Shown here one piece after another: positions 23,608-33,272 of a stretch of 64,000 nt of DNA (position 1 is the first letter of the stretch; each line of letters opens with the position of its first letter). Source of the stretch: Promethearchaeota archaeon (lineage in GTDB: Archaea; Asgardarchaeota; Lokiarchaeia; Sigyniarchaeales; SOKP01); assembly GCA_016926735.1 (NCBI GenBank), contig JAFGOA010000011.1, positions 1 to 64,000 on the forward strand, given 5' to 3'. Both the position numbers and the translations under genes were made by a program. A model generated the notes under the pieces. The model had not been told where the DNA came from, ran no database searches, and saw nothing but the letters and a program-made list of their open reading frames with translations.

Positions 23608-24822
23608 ATGATAACTACAAAAGAAAATATAAATTTTGTTGGAGCAAGAGCACTTTTTGATCCTTATTACATCCCGCCTAAATTACTACACAGAAAAATG
23701 GAAGAAAAATATCTTTTTTCAATTATAAATGATTGCTTAATAGATGATTATTCTATGAATATTTTATATCAAGGTGCTGAAGGAATTGGAAAAAAAGTAA
23801 TTATTAATAAAGTTTTACGGGATCTTATCAATAAAAATTATTCTTATAATGATATATATAAAATTCATATTGATTGTAAAGAAAAAAGTCAAGATGAGGT
23901 AATTATATATATTCTTACAACAATATTAAAGACTTTAAATCTTAAAATTGATATCAATCTAATGATTAATTCTAATATCCATCAACTATGGAATATTTTA
24001 AAATTAACTTTAAAGAAAATGGATGGTAAAATATTTATTATTATGAATAATACTGAAAATCAGAACCTTAAACTAATAAAAAAGATACTTATACTAGGTA
24101 AAGAATTAAAAATTAATACCATTTCAACAAGAAATCAAGTTCTAATGCCCCAAAATTTTGAGATAAAATCATGTTATGATCTAAAAAAAAAATTAAATCA
24201 TTTTTCATATAATCAACTTTTTGATATTCTCAAACAAAGATCTTCATTAAGTTTCCTACATCAAATTGACACAGAAGTAATAGAATATATTACAGACATT
24301 ATTTTTGATAATTATATCCCAATCCCTGGAAAAGGAATTGAGATCTTAAAGGATCTGTTCCCCTCTCTTCAAAAAAAGCAATCAATAAATTATAATCAAT
24401 TAATTCAAATTTGCGAGACTCATTTTGAATCATTTCTTATTTTTAGCGAATATAATATGTTATCCTTTCTTTCAGAAGAAGATCTATTAACAATGTTATT
24501 TCTTGATAATTTAGCTAATTATTTTATGAGTAAATCATCTTTATTCTATATAAATTTGAAAATTCTAAAAGAAATATATTTTATCTCCTGTGAGACCATT
24601 GGATATAATAAAAATCTTAAAGAATTTTCTCAATTGATCAAAAAATTTGAAAATCTTGGAATTATTAATTTATCAAAAAAAAATCTCTTGGTTAATAAAG
24701 AAAATCATTTATATAATCTTCCATCAATGAATTCTTATTTTATATCAATAAGTCCATTGAAATTAAAAGCTATGATTGATGCTATTTTTGAAAAGAATCA
24801 TATAATTAATTTGAATAATTAA
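23608..24822 (+). CDS. Degenerate Orc1/Cdc6-like AAA+ protein
   Basis: 404 residues with the outline of archaeal Orc1/Cdc6. FDPYYIPPKLLHRKMEE matches the family's 'f...yvP..l.hRe.ei' opening. The Walker A position reads GAEGIGKK (56-63) with Lys replacing the final Thr/Ser. A strand IFIIMNN (142-148) sits where Walker B DE should be. ISTRN fits sensor 1, and FSYNQLFDILKQRSS fits the lid entry. The C-terminal third has winged-helix-like helices. The lost Ser/Thr and acidic pair suggest it binds or hydrolyses ATP poorly, if at all. It ends about 130 bp before smc. It could instead belong to another STAND/AAA+ group. Confidence 0.65.
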   Translation: MITTKENINFVGARALFDPYYIPPKLLHRKMEEKYLFSIINDCLIDDYSMNILYQGAEGIGKKVIINKVLRDLINKNYSYNDIYKIHIDCKEKSQDEVIIYILTTILKTLNLKIDINLMINSNIHQLWNILKLTLKKMDGKIFIIMNNTENQNLKLIKKILILGKELKINTISTRNQVLMPQNFEIKSCYDLKKKLNHFSYNQLFDILKQRSSLSFLHQIDTEVIEYITDIIFDNYIPIPGKGIEILKDLFPSLQKKQSINYNQLIQICETHFESFLIFSEYNMLSFLSEEDLLTMLFLDNLANYFMSKSSLFYINLKILKEIYFISCETIGYNKNLKEFSQLIKKFENLGIINLSKKNLLVNKENHLYNLPSMNSYFISISPLKLKAMIDAIFEKNHIINLNN

Positions 24823-24956: not shown

Positions 24957-27900
24957 TTGACATATATAAAAAAAATTTCAATGACTGGATTCAAATCATT
25001 CGGAGATCGCACAGTAACTATAAAATTATCTCCAGGATTTACATGCGTTGTTGGTCCAAATGGAGCTGGTAAATCAAATATAATCGACGCTTTATGTTTT
25101 GCACTTGGACGATTATCAAAAAAAACTATGAGAGCTGAAAAACTTGAGGACCTTATTTTTGCGGGATCAAGAGCTCATAATCCTTCAAATCGTGCATCTG
25201 TGACTTTATATTTTGATAATTCTGATGGAACTTTTCCTGGAGGTACAAATGACTTTGAAATTACTCGTGTAGTAATTAAAGGTAAGGGAAATAAATATAA
25301 AATGAATGGACAGCGAGCAACCCGTCAACAAATCCTAAATGTTCTTGCAGCTGCAAATATTGATCCTGATGGTAGCAATCAATTTGTTCTACAAGGAAAA
25401 ATAGTTGAACTTACTCATATGAATACTGAAGAGCGACGAAAATTTATTGAAGAACTGATTGGGCTTCAAAAGTATGATGATATGAAGGATGATACTCTAA
25501 AGGAGTTGGAAAAAGCAGAACGTGATTTAGGACAATTTGAAGCTATTTTTAAAGAAGTATCTTCTCAGTTAAAAAAAGTTGAAAAAGAAAAAAATGATGC
25601 TTTAGCTTGGAAAGAATTGGACCAGAAAGTTAAAGAACTTAATGTTAAACTTATTGCTTTAAAAATTTCAAAATTAAAGGAAGAAGAAGAAGCAATCGAA
25701 AAAAAGATCGAGCAATCTCAAAAATATATTGAAGAAATTCAAGAGAAAATCTCACGTCAAGAAGAGACTCTTAAGCAAGAATCCTTAGTTATGGAAAATA
25801 TTCAGAAAGTCATAAATGAAAGGGAAAAAGAAAGAGATAATATAAATGAACAAATTACTCAATTAAAAACCGAGTTATCCTCACATCTGACGACTTCTGA
25901 TTTAGCAAAAAAGTCAATTGAAAAATTAAAAAAAGAAAGATCAAAACTAGAAAACCTTCAAATGCAGTTAGAAGAGGGACAGAATTATGATTCTTTAATT
26001 AATAATATAAACACCGAAATTGATAGTATTAAAATTAAAATTGAAAACTCAAAGAAAGAAATCGAGGAAAAACAACAAAATCAACAACAACTAGATGAAC
26101 AAATAAATAATGCTGAGAAAGAAAAATCAAAACTAATTTCAGATATTTCAAAATTTGAGCAAGAAATTTCATCAAAGGAAGCTAGTATTAATGGTCTGAA
26201 AGAAAATATAAAGAAAAATATCCAAAAAAAAGAAAAAAGAGAAGAAGAATTACAAGATCTTAAAGGGGAAGCTGAAAGCGTTGAAAGCGCTATGAAATTA
26301 GTAAAGGGAGAAGAAGAAAATATAAGAAAAGAAATTGAAATCGTTAAAATCCAGATATCTAAAGAAAATGAAAATAGAAAGAATTTAGAAAACAATATTA
26401 CAGTAAAACAAAAGGAGAAAAATATAATTATCTCAAATATATCTGAAATCAAATCCACATTGTCTTCAATTAGCACTGAAATTAAGATGTATAACGATAA
26501 TATCCAAAATCTTGAAAATAAAAAACTACTAATTAATCAAAAAATTGAAGATATAAGTAAGGGTTCTGAAATTGAAAAAGCATTAAAAAAAAATCTTGAA
26601 GATAGAAAACAACTCACTCAAGAATTAGATCAGATAAAGAAGAAAATTAAAGAAGAGGATTTTGAATTTAGGAAAAATGAAAAAAATCTTGAACTTATAA
26701 AAATGAAACAAAATGCTTTATTAACTGAAATAAATGATAATCAGTCAAAAATTAGTAACTTAGGAACAAAATCAAGAATTTTCCAAAAAGAATTCACTAA
26801 TTTAGAAAGGGAAATTAATACTATAACAGTAAATCTTGAAAATGTGAATAAAGATATTGAGGAAAATGATATTAATATAGAAAATCTCAATAAAAGAAAA
26901 GATAATATTATCCGTAGACTCGAGGAATTAAATGCTGAAAAAAAAAGAATTCAAGATAGAATTGATAATGCAGAACAAGAATATGAAAAAGATAAATCAG
27001 ATATTAATGGAATTTTACAGATCTTAAATATGTTAACTCAAAATATCAATATTTCTGTGGAATCTATAAAAAGTAATATTCAACAATCTAATTCTGAAGC
27101 CATTGATTATTCTGCTGAAGATTTTCGAAAATTTATCTTAGATGTTATTGATATGATGAAAACAATAGAGGATGTGAAATGTGAAACCAATACGGAAAAT
27201 ATTATTCCTATTCTTGAATCAATGGTACAAACATTATCATTATTTAATGAAAATGCAGATCAAACAATTGAACAACTAGTATATCGGATTAAAGAATCTG
27301 TGGATGTTGCTGTTCAAGATTCAACTTCGAATTTTGATCACTTTGTTCAAGATTTAATGGAAATATTGGAAAATGTTCATGTATCTCTAAGAAAATTAAC
27401 CGTTTCTAAAGGACAAGACCTATATAAACAACTTGAAGAAATAAGTGAGAGTATTCAAGAACAAGGAGATCAAGTAAATGAAATAGGAATGAATATCTCT
27501 GAACTTCAAATTAAAAATATTCATAATAATAAAGAGAAAACAACAAATCAAATTAAATTTGAAGAAGTGCAAAAAAGAATAAATGAATTAAATGAAAAAA
27601 ATACCGAATTTAATAAAGAAATAGATGAAAGAAATTCAATTATCAATGAGAGAAACAAACAAGAAGAAGAAATAAAAAAACAAATAGAGGAATTAAAGAA
27701 ATTTAGAGATGAACATTGGGATACGACAACCAAATTACAAGAAGAATTGGATAAAAAACAAAATAATATTTCAAACTTGGAACAAAAACTTCAAGATTTA
27801 AAAGGAATTGAAACGCTCTTTGAAAATCTCGATGATATATCACAAAATATAGAAAGTATAAAAAAATCAATCGAAGATAAAAAATTATCAATAATTGATA

Positions 27901-29396
27901 TTGAAGATAATATAAAAAATAAAAATGAAGAATTAAATGCAGTACAAAAAGAAATTGAGCAATTAAATAATAAAAAAGAAACTTTCTGGGAAATTAATAA
28001 ATCACTTCAAGAGAAGATAGAAGATAAAAACAAAGACCTTGAAAAAGTCTTGGATAGATTAAGATCATTAGAAAATATAGTAAGATTGATACATTCCATT
28101 GAAGAATTAAAAAATGAAAATATTGAAGCAGATAAAAAAATAAAAGATAATACTAAATTAATTGAAGAAGCTAAAACAAATATAGAAACCATTCAAAAAG
28201 ATGTAGATAAAAAACAAAAAATAACTGAGAATTTGAGAACTGAAAAATCTAAAATGATTAAAGAACAAAAAATTGCTCAAGAAAACCTTAATAATCTCAA
28301 TAAAGAATTTCAAGACGCACAATCAAAATTGAATGAACTCAATAAAAACAAGGATAGAGAAGAAAAGATTAATTCAATTTACTCTGAAATAGAACAAACT
28401 AAAAAACAAATAGAAGAGGTTCAAATTAAAATCAAAGACATTGAAACAAACCTTGAAGAAGTTAATGCCAAAAAGATTGAAAAACAAAATGAAATTGATA
28501 GAAATATTACTGAAAAAGATGAATCATGGAAAAAACAAAAACAATTTCAAAAAATTTATACAGATTTAAAATCTGACTTCTCGATGGAAAAATCAAAATT
28601 AAATAATTTAGAGTCAAAAAAGGTAATAAATAATGACCAAATTGAAGCATTATTTCATAGATCTAAAGATTTTGGAATCCTCCCTCAAGTTACGGAAGAT
28701 CTATCTGAAATGGATTTAGAAAATGATATAACCGCCTCAATTAAACAAAGAGAAGCTCTTGAACCTGTAAATCTAAGAGCAATCAAACAATATGATGCGG
28801 TAAAGGAACGATTTGATGAAATTGATATGAGAAGACAAACAATACAAAGAGAAAGAAAATCAATTCTAGATGCAATTGAAAAAATAGAATTAGAGAAATT
28901 TCAATCATTTACGAAAGCTTATCATGAAATAAACAGAGAATTCTCCAGAATATTTCAAAAATTATCTCCAGGAGGATCTGCTAAAATGATACTAGACAGA
29001 CCAGATAAACCTTTTGAAGGAGGAATTAGTATTGAGGCAAGACCTCGTGGAAAAAAAATATCCTCTCTTGAAATTTTAAGTGGAGGTGAGAAAACTCTTG
29101 TAGCACTCTCATTTATCTTTTCTGTTCAAGAATTCTATCCCGCACCTTTTTATATAATGGATGAGATTGATGCTGCGTTGGACGGTCCGAACGTACATCG
29201 TGTTTCCACGGTTATCCAAGAATTTTCTCATCAAGCACAGTTTATTGTTATAAGTCACCGAGAAGAAAATATTGTTAATGCTGAAAGGATATATGGTGTA
29301 TCAATGCAACAAAGTGGAATAACAGACGTATTCAGCGTTGATTTAGAAGAAGAAGCAAAACGTCTTTTGGATATTGAGAATGTAGAAGCAAATTAG
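24957..29396 (+). CDS. smc: SMC chromosome-partition ATPase, enlarged, no recognisable hinge
   Basis: Chromosome-organising ATPase. The N-head is canonical (GFKSFGDRTV, Walker A GPNGAGKSN at 33-41, NQFVLQGKI). So is the C-head (EPVNLRAI, signature LSGGEKTL at about 1374, Walker B FYIMDEIDAALD). The two coiled-coil arms run about 170-680 and 820-1270, longer than usual; total length 1479 against about 1150-1200. Between the arms (about 683-820) I find no SMC hinge: no Gly-rich GVxG strand, and no cysteine hook, only four or so acidic amphipathic helices. Start TTG with no better ATG. scpA and scpB follow at 31.4-33.3 kb. Confidence 0.95.
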   Translation: MTYIKKISMTGFKSFGDRTVTIKLSPGFTCVVGPNGAGKSNIIDALCFALGRLSKKTMRAEKLEDLIFAGSRAHNPSNRASVTLYFDNSDGTFPGGTNDFEITRVVIKGKGNKYKMNGQRATRQQILNVLAAANIDPDGSNQFVLQGKIVELTHMNTEERRKFIEELIGLQKYDDMKDDTLKELEKAERDLGQFEAIFKEVSSQLKKVEKEKNDALAWKELDQKVKELNVKLIALKISKLKEEEEAIEKKIEQSQKYIEEIQEKISRQEETLKQESLVMENIQKVINEREKERDNINEQITQLKTELSSHLTTSDLAKKSIEKLKKERSKLENLQMQLEEGQNYDSLINNINTEIDSIKIKIENSKKEIEEKQQNQQQLDEQINNAEKEKSKLISDISKFEQEISSKEASINGLKENIKKNIQKKEKREEELQDLKGEAESVESAMKLVKGEEENIRKEIEIVKIQISKENENRKNLENNITVKQKEKNIIISNISEIKSTLSSISTEIKMYNDNIQNLENKKLLINQKIEDISKGSEIEKALKKNLEDRKQLTQELDQIKKKIKEEDFEFRKNEKNLELIKMKQNALLTEINDNQSKISNLGTKSRIFQKEFTNLEREINTITVNLENVNKDIEENDINIENLNKRKDNIIRRLEELNAEKKRIQDRIDNAEQEYEKDKSDINGILQILNMLTQNINISVESIKSNIQQSNSEAIDYSAEDFRKFILDVIDMMKTIEDVKCETNTENIIPILESMVQTLSLFNENADQTIEQLVYRIKESVDVAVQDSTSNFDHFVQDLMEILENVHVSLRKLTVSKGQDLYKQLEEISESIQEQGDQVNEIGMNISELQIKNIHNNKEKTTNQIKFEEVQKRINELNEKNTEFNKEIDERNSIINERNKQEEEIKKQIEELKKFRDEHWDTTTKLQEELDKKQNNISNLEQKLQDLKGIETLFENLDDISQNIESIKKSIEDKKLSIIDIEDNIKNKNEELNAVQKEIEQLNNKKETFWEINKSLQEKIEDKNKDLEKVLDRLRSLENIVRLIHSIEELKNENIEADKKIKDNTKLIEEAKTNIETIQKDVDKKQKITENLRTEKSKMIKEQKIAQENLNNLNKEFQDAQSKLNELNKNKDREEKINSIYSEIEQTKKQIEEVQIKIKDIETNLEEVNAKKIEKQNEIDRNITEKDESWKKQKQFQKIYTDLKSDFSMEKSKLNNLESKKVINNDQIEALFHRSKDFGILPQVTEDLSEMDLENDITASIKQREALEPVNLRAIKQYDAVKERFDEIDMRRQTIQRERKSILDAIEKIELEKFQSFTKAYHEINREFSRIFQKLSPGGSAKMILDRPDKPFEGGISIEARPRGKKISSLEILSGGEKTLVALSFIFSVQEFYPAPFYIMDEIDAALDGPNVHRVSTVIQEFSHQAQFIVISHREENIVNAERIYGVSMQQSGITDVFSVDLEEEAKRLLDIENVEAN

Positions 29397-29431: not shown

Positions 29432-29511
29432 TTAGAAAACCGCCAGACTCTCATTATTAATTGACTAAGTTTTTCTTTTTTATAGTAATAAAATTCTTGT
29501 TGAGAATTCTT

Positions 29512-30042
29512 ATGCTTATATCTCCATCTCAAGAAACAAAATTATTAAAAATAATTATTGCTGGAAATGCAAGTGTGGGTAAAACTACCTTGATCAAACG
29601 TTATATTGAAGGAATATTTTTAAAAAACTCTAAAATGACTGTTGGTGTTGAACATTATGCTAAAGAAATAGAAATATCTGATTTTGTTTGTAAGATGCAA
29701 TTATGGGATTTGGGTGGTCAAGATAGGTTTCGATATATTTTAGATTTTGCAATAAAAGGAGCTCATGGTGCGTTATTATTATTCGACATTACAAATTATA
29801 GTAGTTTTATTTCTATAGATAAATGGGTAAAATTATTAAGATCTGAGAATGATAACTTACCCATCCTCTTAGTTGGTACTAAAACAGATCTTCAAAATTG
29901 TTCAGTTGTTAAAGATGTTCTCATTCCAAAAGTGGTAAAAAGAAATAATTTCTCTAATTATTTAGAAACATCTTCAAAAACGGGTTTAAATATAGAAAAT
30001 GTTTTTCAATCCATCCTTTCAGATATTTTAATACAAAATTAA
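29512..30042 (+). CDS. Ras-like small GTPase
   Basis: About 176 residues. G1 is AGNASVGKTT, switch I has a Thr before VGVEHY, and G3 is WDLGGQD with the catalytic Gln kept. G4 is VGTKTD (Thr in place of Asn of NKxD) and G5 is ETSSKTG. This is an Asgard Ras/Rab/Arf-like GTPase. There is no C-terminal cysteine for prenylation and no N-terminal myristoylation site, so it is soluble or held by partners. The frame opens at TTG 29461, but the extra 17 residues are hydrophobic and family members start near the ATG at 29512. It lies between smc and scpA. Confidence 0.9.
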   Translation: MLISPSQETKLLKIIIAGNASVGKTTLIKRYIEGIFLKNSKMTVGVEHYAKEIEISDFVCKMQLWDLGGQDRFRYILDFAIKGAHGALLLFDITNYSSFISIDKWVKLLRSENDNLPILLVGTKTDLQNCSVVKDVLIPKVVKRNNFSNYLETSSKTGLNIENVFQSILSDILIQN

Positions 30043-32431: not shown

Positions 32432-32462
32432 AAACGTATTATCTGATTAAGTGACAATTATT

Positions 32463-33272
32463 ATGAATAATGATATCAATAAATCTGAAAATAATGATGA
32501 AAACGATATAGATAAAACTAAAGATGATGATCAAGATTCTTTTAATGACAATATTATTGGCAATGATGAAAAAATAATAGAGGAAAGTAATAGTGAAATA
32601 GATAATATTGATAATGATGAATTCTCAAAAAATGAAAATTTTAATGGAAAATTCTCAGAAGAAAATAACAATGAAATCGGCAATCTTGAGAAAAACAATC
32701 AAGAACAATCTCAAGAAGAAAAAAAAACCACTAAAGACCCATCTGAGGAGGAAATTCATGATATTTATAGAAATCTAGTAGAAGGGGCTCTTTATGCTGC
32801 AGGAAAATCGCTATCCATTGAAGAAATCTCTACAAAATTAAATCTTTCAAAAATTGAGATAGAAGACTTGCTTAATGAACTTCTTGAAATTTATCATAAT
32901 AGATCGAGTGCTATCACCATAATTAAATTAGGAGATAAATATCAAATGCAAATAAAGACTGAATATGCTGAAAAAATCTCTCAATTTGCTCAAGGAGGGG
33001 CTATCTCTGAAAAATATTTAAGAACTCTTACAATTATTGCATTAAAACAACCAATTTTAAAATCTCTTGTGATAAAAATAAGAGGAACTGGAGCATATGA
33101 ACACATTAAATTTCTTGAAGAAAATGGATTTATTGTTTCTGGTAAAAAAGGAAGATCTGCTGAACTAATCACAACTGATAAATATGCAGAAATGTTTGGT
33201 CTTCCGAAAGATAAACAAGAAATGAAAAAAGTTATGATTGAACAATTAGGAATTGAAAAAAAATCAAATTAA
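32463..33272 (+). CDS. scpB: ScpB segregation and condensation protein with an acidic N-terminal tail
   Basis: Dimeric winged-helix partner of ScpA. The core runs from IYRNLVEGALYAAGKSLSIEEI through AEKISQFAQGGAISEKYLRTLTIIALKQPILKS and IKIRGTGAYEHIKFLEENGFI to RSAELITTDKYAEMFGLP, a good ScpB match. The first 100 residues are an Asp/Glu/Asn-rich, low-complexity tail with no structure, not part of the usual family length of about 180-200. Start ATG 32463; GTG 32451 is possible. It overlaps the convergent valS by 4 nt. Confidence 0.92.
   Translation: MNNDINKSENNDENDIDKTKDDDQDSFNDNIIGNDEKIIEESNSEIDNIDNDEFSKNENFNGKFSEENNNEIGNLEKNNQEQSQEEKKTTKDPSEEEIHDIYRNLVEGALYAAGKSLSIEEISTKLNLSKIEIEDLLNELLEIYHNRSSAITIIKLGDKYQMQIKTEYAEKISQFAQGGAISEKYLRTLTIIALKQPILKSLVIKIRGTGAYEHIKFLEENGFIVSGKKGRSAELITTDKYAEMFGLPKDKQEMKKVMIEQLGIEKKSN

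Follow-up and report, generated by a model that had tools for sequence, protein, structure and literature searches.

An SMC protein encoded in a 64,000-nucleotide stretch of a Promethearchaeota archaeon genome (contig JAFGOA010000011.1; the whole stretch is hereafter called the window) has canonical ATPase heads and carries, in the place of the hinge, an acidic domain composed of two helical repeats (hereafter the tip). On the basis of the sequence comparisons described below, the loss of the hinge and its replacement in this protein can be considered as good as shown. SMC proteins dimerise through the hinge, which, to our knowledge, is treated as near-universal in SMC proper. In the scenario that we consider likely, a single event in the ancestor of the order Promethearchaeales exchanged the hinge for a helical module, which would dimerise the arms as a four-helix bundle.

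The hinge position and the tip domain

The smc open reading frame (Table 1) starts with a TTG codon, and its product matched SMC_N (PF02463) with both ends aligned (143.6 bits, E = 7.9e-42). It scored 592 bits against TIGR02168, above the cut-off of 567, and 639 bits against TIGR02169, under the cut-off of 729, and its heads fitted SMC proper with far higher scores than they did Rad50 or ASRP. Walker A, the signature and Walker B of the split ABC-type ATPase head could all be read in the sequence, and genes matching PF02616 and PF04079 lie downstream. These results agree with an initial annotation of the window, which had described textbook SMC heads with scpA and scpB close by, no recognisable hinge and no CxxC zinc hook.

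SMC_hinge (PF06470) was not detected in the window SMC at E ≤ 1, and the single PF06470 match in the whole window genome fell in a different protein, on contig C109. A hinge HMM made from 25 Asgard hinges matched all of the 11 canonical control archaeal SMCs at 73–165 bits, including divergent ones from Nanohaloarchaeota and Bathyarchaeota (one control, from genome G096, was also among the training sequences). The same HMM weakly matched one divergent Asgard SMC (16 bits) and the C109 SMC of the window genome (19–21 bits), and matched none of the five helical-tip SMCs searched with filters off, the window protein included. Comparison of the tip profile with the hinge profile by hhalign aligned a single column with a probability of 0.1, and the median number of glycines was 3 in the tip versus 8 in the hinge. 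The CxxC of the Rad50/SbcC and ASRP zinc hook, sought in the full-length orthologues, was present in 0/29.

In an alignment of 26 orthologues, mean conservation per 20 residues was 0.63–0.84 across residues 681–825, compared with 0.66–0.81 in the N-terminal head and 0.5–0.65 in most arm segments of the same SMCs. The tip thus roughly equals the N-terminal head in conservation, in contrast to the drifting arms, suggesting that it has a function of its own. Within the tip, conservation was highest at the base of the hairpin and lowest at the apex loop, which is acidic and differs in length among the orthologues. The net charge of the tip was −16 in the window protein, with a family median of −18 versus −3 for hinges. 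Median arm lengths were 506 and 430 residues (N- and C-terminal arm, respectively) in tip SMCs versus 363 and 336 residues in canonical SMCs, and the former were near-constant at 506 and 429–430 residues except in family f4 (410 and 341). The stretch that the initial annotation had singled out, 26990–27420, corresponds to residues 679–822 and coincides with the domain delimited by conservation (residues 676–832); the acidic helices and arms about a third longer than usual that it had reported were likewise borne out.

The two halves of the tip aligned with each other by hhalign over 58 columns without gaps, with a score of 69.9 and E = 1.5e-14, whereas control pairs of arm segments of equal lengths scored at most 30.4. 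We regard it as shown, at the level of sequence profiles, that the tip consists of two helical repeats of ~58 residues derived from an internal duplication. Large hydrophobic residues made up 37% of the tip helices versus 26% of the arms, in which the highest fractions for any segment were 0.32 and 0.30, and charged residues made up 25% versus 40%. The hydrophobic period was 3.64–3.66 in the tip helices versus a mean of 3.47 in the arms, and 0 of 135–143 arm segments, which overlap and are not independent trials, reached 3.6, though one stretch of canonical SMC arms likewise reaches this value. This composition and period suggest hydrophobic faces too wide for a two-stranded heptad coil; judged from sequence, the pattern is that of multi-helix bundles, whose helices are straighter and have broad hydrophobic faces. 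The proposal in the initial annotation of a different helical module in the place of the hinge is well supported, as regards a lineage-wide replacement, by the hinge HMM search, the domain boundaries, duplication and composition, and the distribution described below.

AlphaFold2 predicted a helical hairpin from the window sequence (helices 640–742 and 749–869) and a similar hairpin with short breaks when a distant orthologue was used as the first sequence; no strand was predicted in the tip with either. Neither a PF06470 match nor a predicted hinge fold, either of which would have contradicted the initial annotation, was thus found. The pLDDT was >90 in the arms and ~70–80 in the tip, and lower tip confidence in single-chain models would be as expected if a partner is missing. 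The pTM of the hairpin models was only 0.43–0.45 and the five models differed from each other; given these values and the tip pLDDT, the models support helices and not a detailed fold. Foldseek searches with the tip models returned generic helical hairpins only (best E 0.013 and 4e-4), a profile search of PDB sequences with the tip returned generic coiled coils only (E at least 0.025), and no relative of the tip was found in viral contigs.

Table 1. Positions of the tip SMC, its parts and associated genes in the window, and of related loci on other contigs
Feature	Position	Strand	Evidence
Divergent Orc1/Cdc6-like ATPase, directly upstream of smc	23608..24822	+	TIGR02928 38.8 bits, far under cut-off
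smc, 1479 aa, helical-tip SMC	24957..29396	+	Open reading frame; Pfam SMC_N; TIGR profiles
ATPase head, N-terminal half, residues 1–170, Walker A GPNGAGKSN	24957..25466	+	26-orthologue alignment; head HMM
N-terminal coiled-coil arm, residues 171–675	25467..26981	+	Hydrophobic period about 3.47
Tip domain replacing hinge, residues 676–832, acidic, all-helical by prediction	26982..27452	+	Conservation; AlphaFold; HMM matches
Tip repeat 1, residues 680–737, hairpin helix 1	26994..27167	+	hhalign
Apex loop, residues 743–748	27183..27200	+	AlphaFold loop; alignment indels
Tip repeat 2, residues 750–807, hairpin helix 2	27204..27377	+	hhalign
C-terminal coiled-coil arm, residues 833–1261	27453..28739	+	Period; arm-length comparison
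ATPase head, C-terminal half, residues 1262–1470, LSGGEKTL, DEIDAALD, VISHR	28740..29366	+	Alignment; head HMM
Ras-family small GTPase, between smc and scpA	29461..30042	+	PF00071 141.7 bits
scpA (kleisin), N-terminal extension of ~100 residues, SAP/LEM-like by similarity to L170 and L020	31391..32431	+	PF02616 19.3 bits (under cut-off); iterative orthologue HMM
scpB (kite)	32451..33272	+	PF04079 113 bits; TIGR00281 100.3 bits
Second SMC of the window genome, 1161 aa, weak hinge, with the two genes that follow it	L071 (contig C109), 4778..9478		PF06470 32 bits
Hinge-bearing SMC paralogues of the order with scpB-like neighbour	L164, L169, L171, L173, L176, L179, L180		
Tandem-tip protein	L165, 2000..5122; L166, 3915..6692; L206, 1086..3860	−	Tip-profile matches

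Distribution, ancestry and coexisting SMCs

The close relatives of the window SMC found in public genomes are Lokiarchaeota, and the order concerned is Promethearchaeales, to which the named relative Harpocratesius, whose genome shares its order with that of the window, belongs. The initial annotation had suggested collecting homologues to see whether the replacement is lineage-wide; among 228 Asgard genomes surveyed, tip SMCs were found in 66 of the 79 genomes of this order (order counts taken from tables), and many of those without one are incomplete or have broken contigs. Outside the order, 0/4 genomes of the same class had a convincing match. The only strong match outside the order, in genome G048, is almost identical to a gene of family f3 and lies on an 8.6-kb contig, indicating contamination or recent transfer, and weak tip-profile matches in four other genomes (G008, G019, G082 and G174) are probably coiled-coil noise.

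A strong canonical hinge (E ≤ 1e-20) was found in only 16/79 genomes of the order, one of which, G160, groups with another family and may reflect contamination. Some genomes thus keep a hinge-bearing SMC paralogue as well, and most, including that of the window, lack one. In genomes with both kinds, the hinge-bearing copy is ~1195 aa long and has a small scpB-like gene beside it and no scpA. A tree built from the heads of 44 SMCs placed the tip SMCs in one group (100/100), among archaeal SMCs and apart from the order's own hinge-bearing copies; this group adjoined the weak-hinge SMCs of families f5, f7 and f15, though with support (90/87) that is not firm. A tree joining the order's hinge-bearing copies with the tip SMCs, as would follow if the tip SMC had arisen from the hinge-bearing copy by a duplication within the order, was not the best tree and was not rejected (AU test, p = 0.083). 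We read these sequence data as indicating that the tip SMC may derive from a second SMC lineage, whose hinge, perhaps diverging already, gave way to the tip along the order's stem.

The window genome also encodes the weak-hinge SMC on contig C109, counterparts of which are present in most of the order. After it come a 216-aa gene without a match and one of 173 aa that faintly resembles ScpB (21 bits), and this locus possibly encodes a separate SMC–kleisin–kite complex. The C109 SMC was considered as a heterodimer partner of the tip SMC, which is unlikely because the heads are very distant (29–31 bits). In families f15 and f16 (L168, 5244–10875 on the minus strand, and L204), the gene for an SMC with a very weak hinge match precedes scpA and a pair of distinct scpB-like genes, whose products might form a kite heterodimer.

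Partner genes and a second tip-bearing protein

Almost every tip-SMC locus with sufficient flanking sequence also contains scpA and scpB, and in the window genome the tip SMC is the only scpA/scpB-linked SMC found. Between smc and scpA in the window lie the small GTPase gene (Table 1) and a gene for a 272-aa protein without a Pfam match; 2.5–5 kb likewise separates scpA from smc at L014 and L020. In the ScpA partners of tip SMCs, about 85–105 residues precede a motif that lies after ~10 residues in canonical Asgard ScpAs, as read from copies with a full N-terminus, several gene starts in family f1 being uncertain. The extension is Ish1/SAP/LEM-like at L170 (PF10281, 31.2 bits), a helix–hairpin–helix at L014 (PF14520, 50.5 bits), a C2H2-like finger at L015 (by eye and by a weak PF00096 match) and a lysine-rich tail in family f3. 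These lineage-specific extensions were apparently gained repeatedly, and all belong to nucleic-acid-binding types, in keeping with a transfer of DNA contacts from the tip to the kleisin.

The tip also occurs outside SMC. A second, non-SMC protein (926–1041 aa) matched the tip profile twice in tandem, each match spanning almost all of the domain (70.5/28.5 and 62.6/46.4 bits); arm profiles and Pfam domains gave no match. This protein has four helical repeats in total and a lysine-rich C-terminal tail, and was detected in family f3 only, in genera g12 and g13. The presence of the tip in tandem and without arms in another protein indicates that the tip is a movable domain. Two tips per chain have the look of a natural single-chain dimer, though this is suggestive only, and the tandem-tip protein could be a partner or a competitor of the SMC tip.

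Role of the tip

The best-established task of the hinge is to hold the two arms together. Considering the above results, we propose the following scenario for the tip SMC. The two tandem repeats of ~58 residues would fold back on each other into an antiparallel hairpin, which would be pseudo-two-fold symmetric because its two helices are duplicates. Two SMC chains may then pack their hairpins into a four-helix bundle, either side by side (parallel, chemoreceptor-like) or end to end (antiparallel, Rop-like), doing the job of the hinge dimer. With ScpA and ScpB still bridging the heads, ATP cycling and DNA movement would proceed as in other SMC–ScpAB complexes. Given the strong acidity of the tip, any DNA contacts of the kind made by a hinge are probably now made at another site, most likely by the N-terminal modules of DNA-binding type on ScpA; we hypothesise this hand-over from the correlation between the two features. 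Dimerisation by the new tip, of which single chains were modelled, is in our judgement likely. The joint reading, in which the duplicated acidic tip dimerises the order's main condensin as a four-helix bundle and varied kleisin modules have taken over the hinge's DNA contacts, is offered tentatively, as a possibility short of probable.

Several published observations bear on such a role. In Bacillus subtilis, Smc carrying the Rad50 zinc hook in place of its hinge allowed normal growth on rich medium, from which the authors concluded that it does not matter for chromosome segregation there which fold the dimerisation domain has, and Smc function in this bacterium needs dimerisation at the arm end (PMC5344682). 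In fission yeast, Rad50 remains functional when SMC hinges, of either MukB or Smc, take the place of its hook (PMC6969161). Because the tip has the features expected of a hinge stand-in, it is taken to dimerise SMC as a four-helix bundle, and this is the best inference from its wide hydrophobic faces, its pseudo-symmetry, the tandem pair in another protein and the published hinge stand-ins. The low pTM of the single-chain models, the conservation peak at the hairpin base and the generic Foldseek matches count against it.

Conservation that peaks at the hairpin base and an apex loop that varies would also suit a tip acting as a docking platform for a partner protein, with the SMC chains joined only through heads, kleisin and arm–arm contacts, and the tandem-tip protein of family f3 with its lysine-rich tail is a candidate partner. 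That protein was, however, found in just two genera, whereas SMCs with the tip occur throughout the order, which speaks against it as a common partner, and the arm-end dimerisation required for B. subtilis Smc (PMC5344682) further argues against this role, which we consider unlikely. Less likely again is a hinge lost without replacement, leaving a plain coiled-coil hairpin end with no special role. RecN and the ‘hinge-less’ actinobacterial SMCs (for the latter, PMC12153180) would be comparable cases, and the AlphaFold helices are essentially continuous, but the tip greatly exceeds the arms in conservation, differs from them in composition and periodicity, and is an old duplication that recurs as a separate domain.

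Since the SMCs of families f5, f7 and f15, neighbours of the tip SMCs in the head tree, have weak hinges (16–38 bits), divergence of the hinge may have been under way in that lineage already. Nevertheless, the near-absence of alignment between the tip and hinge profiles, the lack of any predicted strand, the rarer glycines and a duplicated helical repeat that accounts for the stretch make a true hinge diverged past recognition very improbable. The window genome, which is 99% complete, is a draft of 238 contigs and probably a metagenome assembly, and a frameshift, chimeric assembly or miscalled gene might be suspected; this is refuted by the same full-length open architecture in dozens of independent genomes, with near-constant arm lengths in almost all of them, and its probability is negligible. 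Dimerisation by the tip thus stands as the preferred reading.

Compared with known systems, the tip SMC shares its head motifs, long arms and scpA/scpB linkage with SMC–ScpAB (PF02463 with PF06470, PF02616 and PF04079), but it has a duplicated helical tip and no hinge, its arms are 28–39% longer, and its ScpA partner has long N-terminal extensions. Rad50/SbcC and the ASRPs (ClsN/Sph) are likewise long-armed ATPases of SMC type in which a non-hinge element closes the arms; in their case this is the zinc hook, whose CxxC the tip-SMC orthologues lack. In marine Actinobacteria, hinge-less SMCs occur lineage-wide, with no replacing domain described and no co-occurring normal SMC found (PMC12153180). 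Compared by description, these bacterial proteins and the archaeal tip SMCs are both hinge-free lineage-wide, whereas some Promethearchaeales genomes carry both SMC kinds. In the engineered hinge swaps (PMC5344682, PMC6969161), as putatively in the tip SMC, an unrelated dimerisation module replaces the hinge and the complex continues to function; those swaps are laboratory-made, whereas the tip SMC would be an evolutionary swap with a helical module.

In the cytoplasmic domain of chemoreceptors and in Rop, two hairpins of antiparallel helices pair to give a four-helix bundle, and both serve here purely as analogies. The former headed the Foldseek list of one tip model, but the match was weak and generic (E = 0.013), and neither Foldseek nor the profile search of PDB sequences detected homology of the tip to the chemoreceptor signalling domain. 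No description of the tip SMC was found in the open-access literature, most subscription papers and preprints lying outside the search. The tip SMC looks like a naturally occurring exchange of the SMC pairing module, of which engineered proteins have hitherto been the only examples.

It is debated whether the hinge works as an active gate or acts solely as a clamp. A lineage that replaced the hinge, with some relatives keeping a hinge-bearing paralogue, constitutes a natural experiment on the role of the hinge, and whatever tip-SMC complexes still do needs no hinge fold. If the joint reading is true, the SMC cycle in these archaea cannot depend on the hinge fold opening or binding DNA. The tip SMC also adds a case of coexisting SMC paralogues in an archaeal order close to where eukaryotes arose, a setting in which duplications of SMC and changes of its partners are of particular interest.
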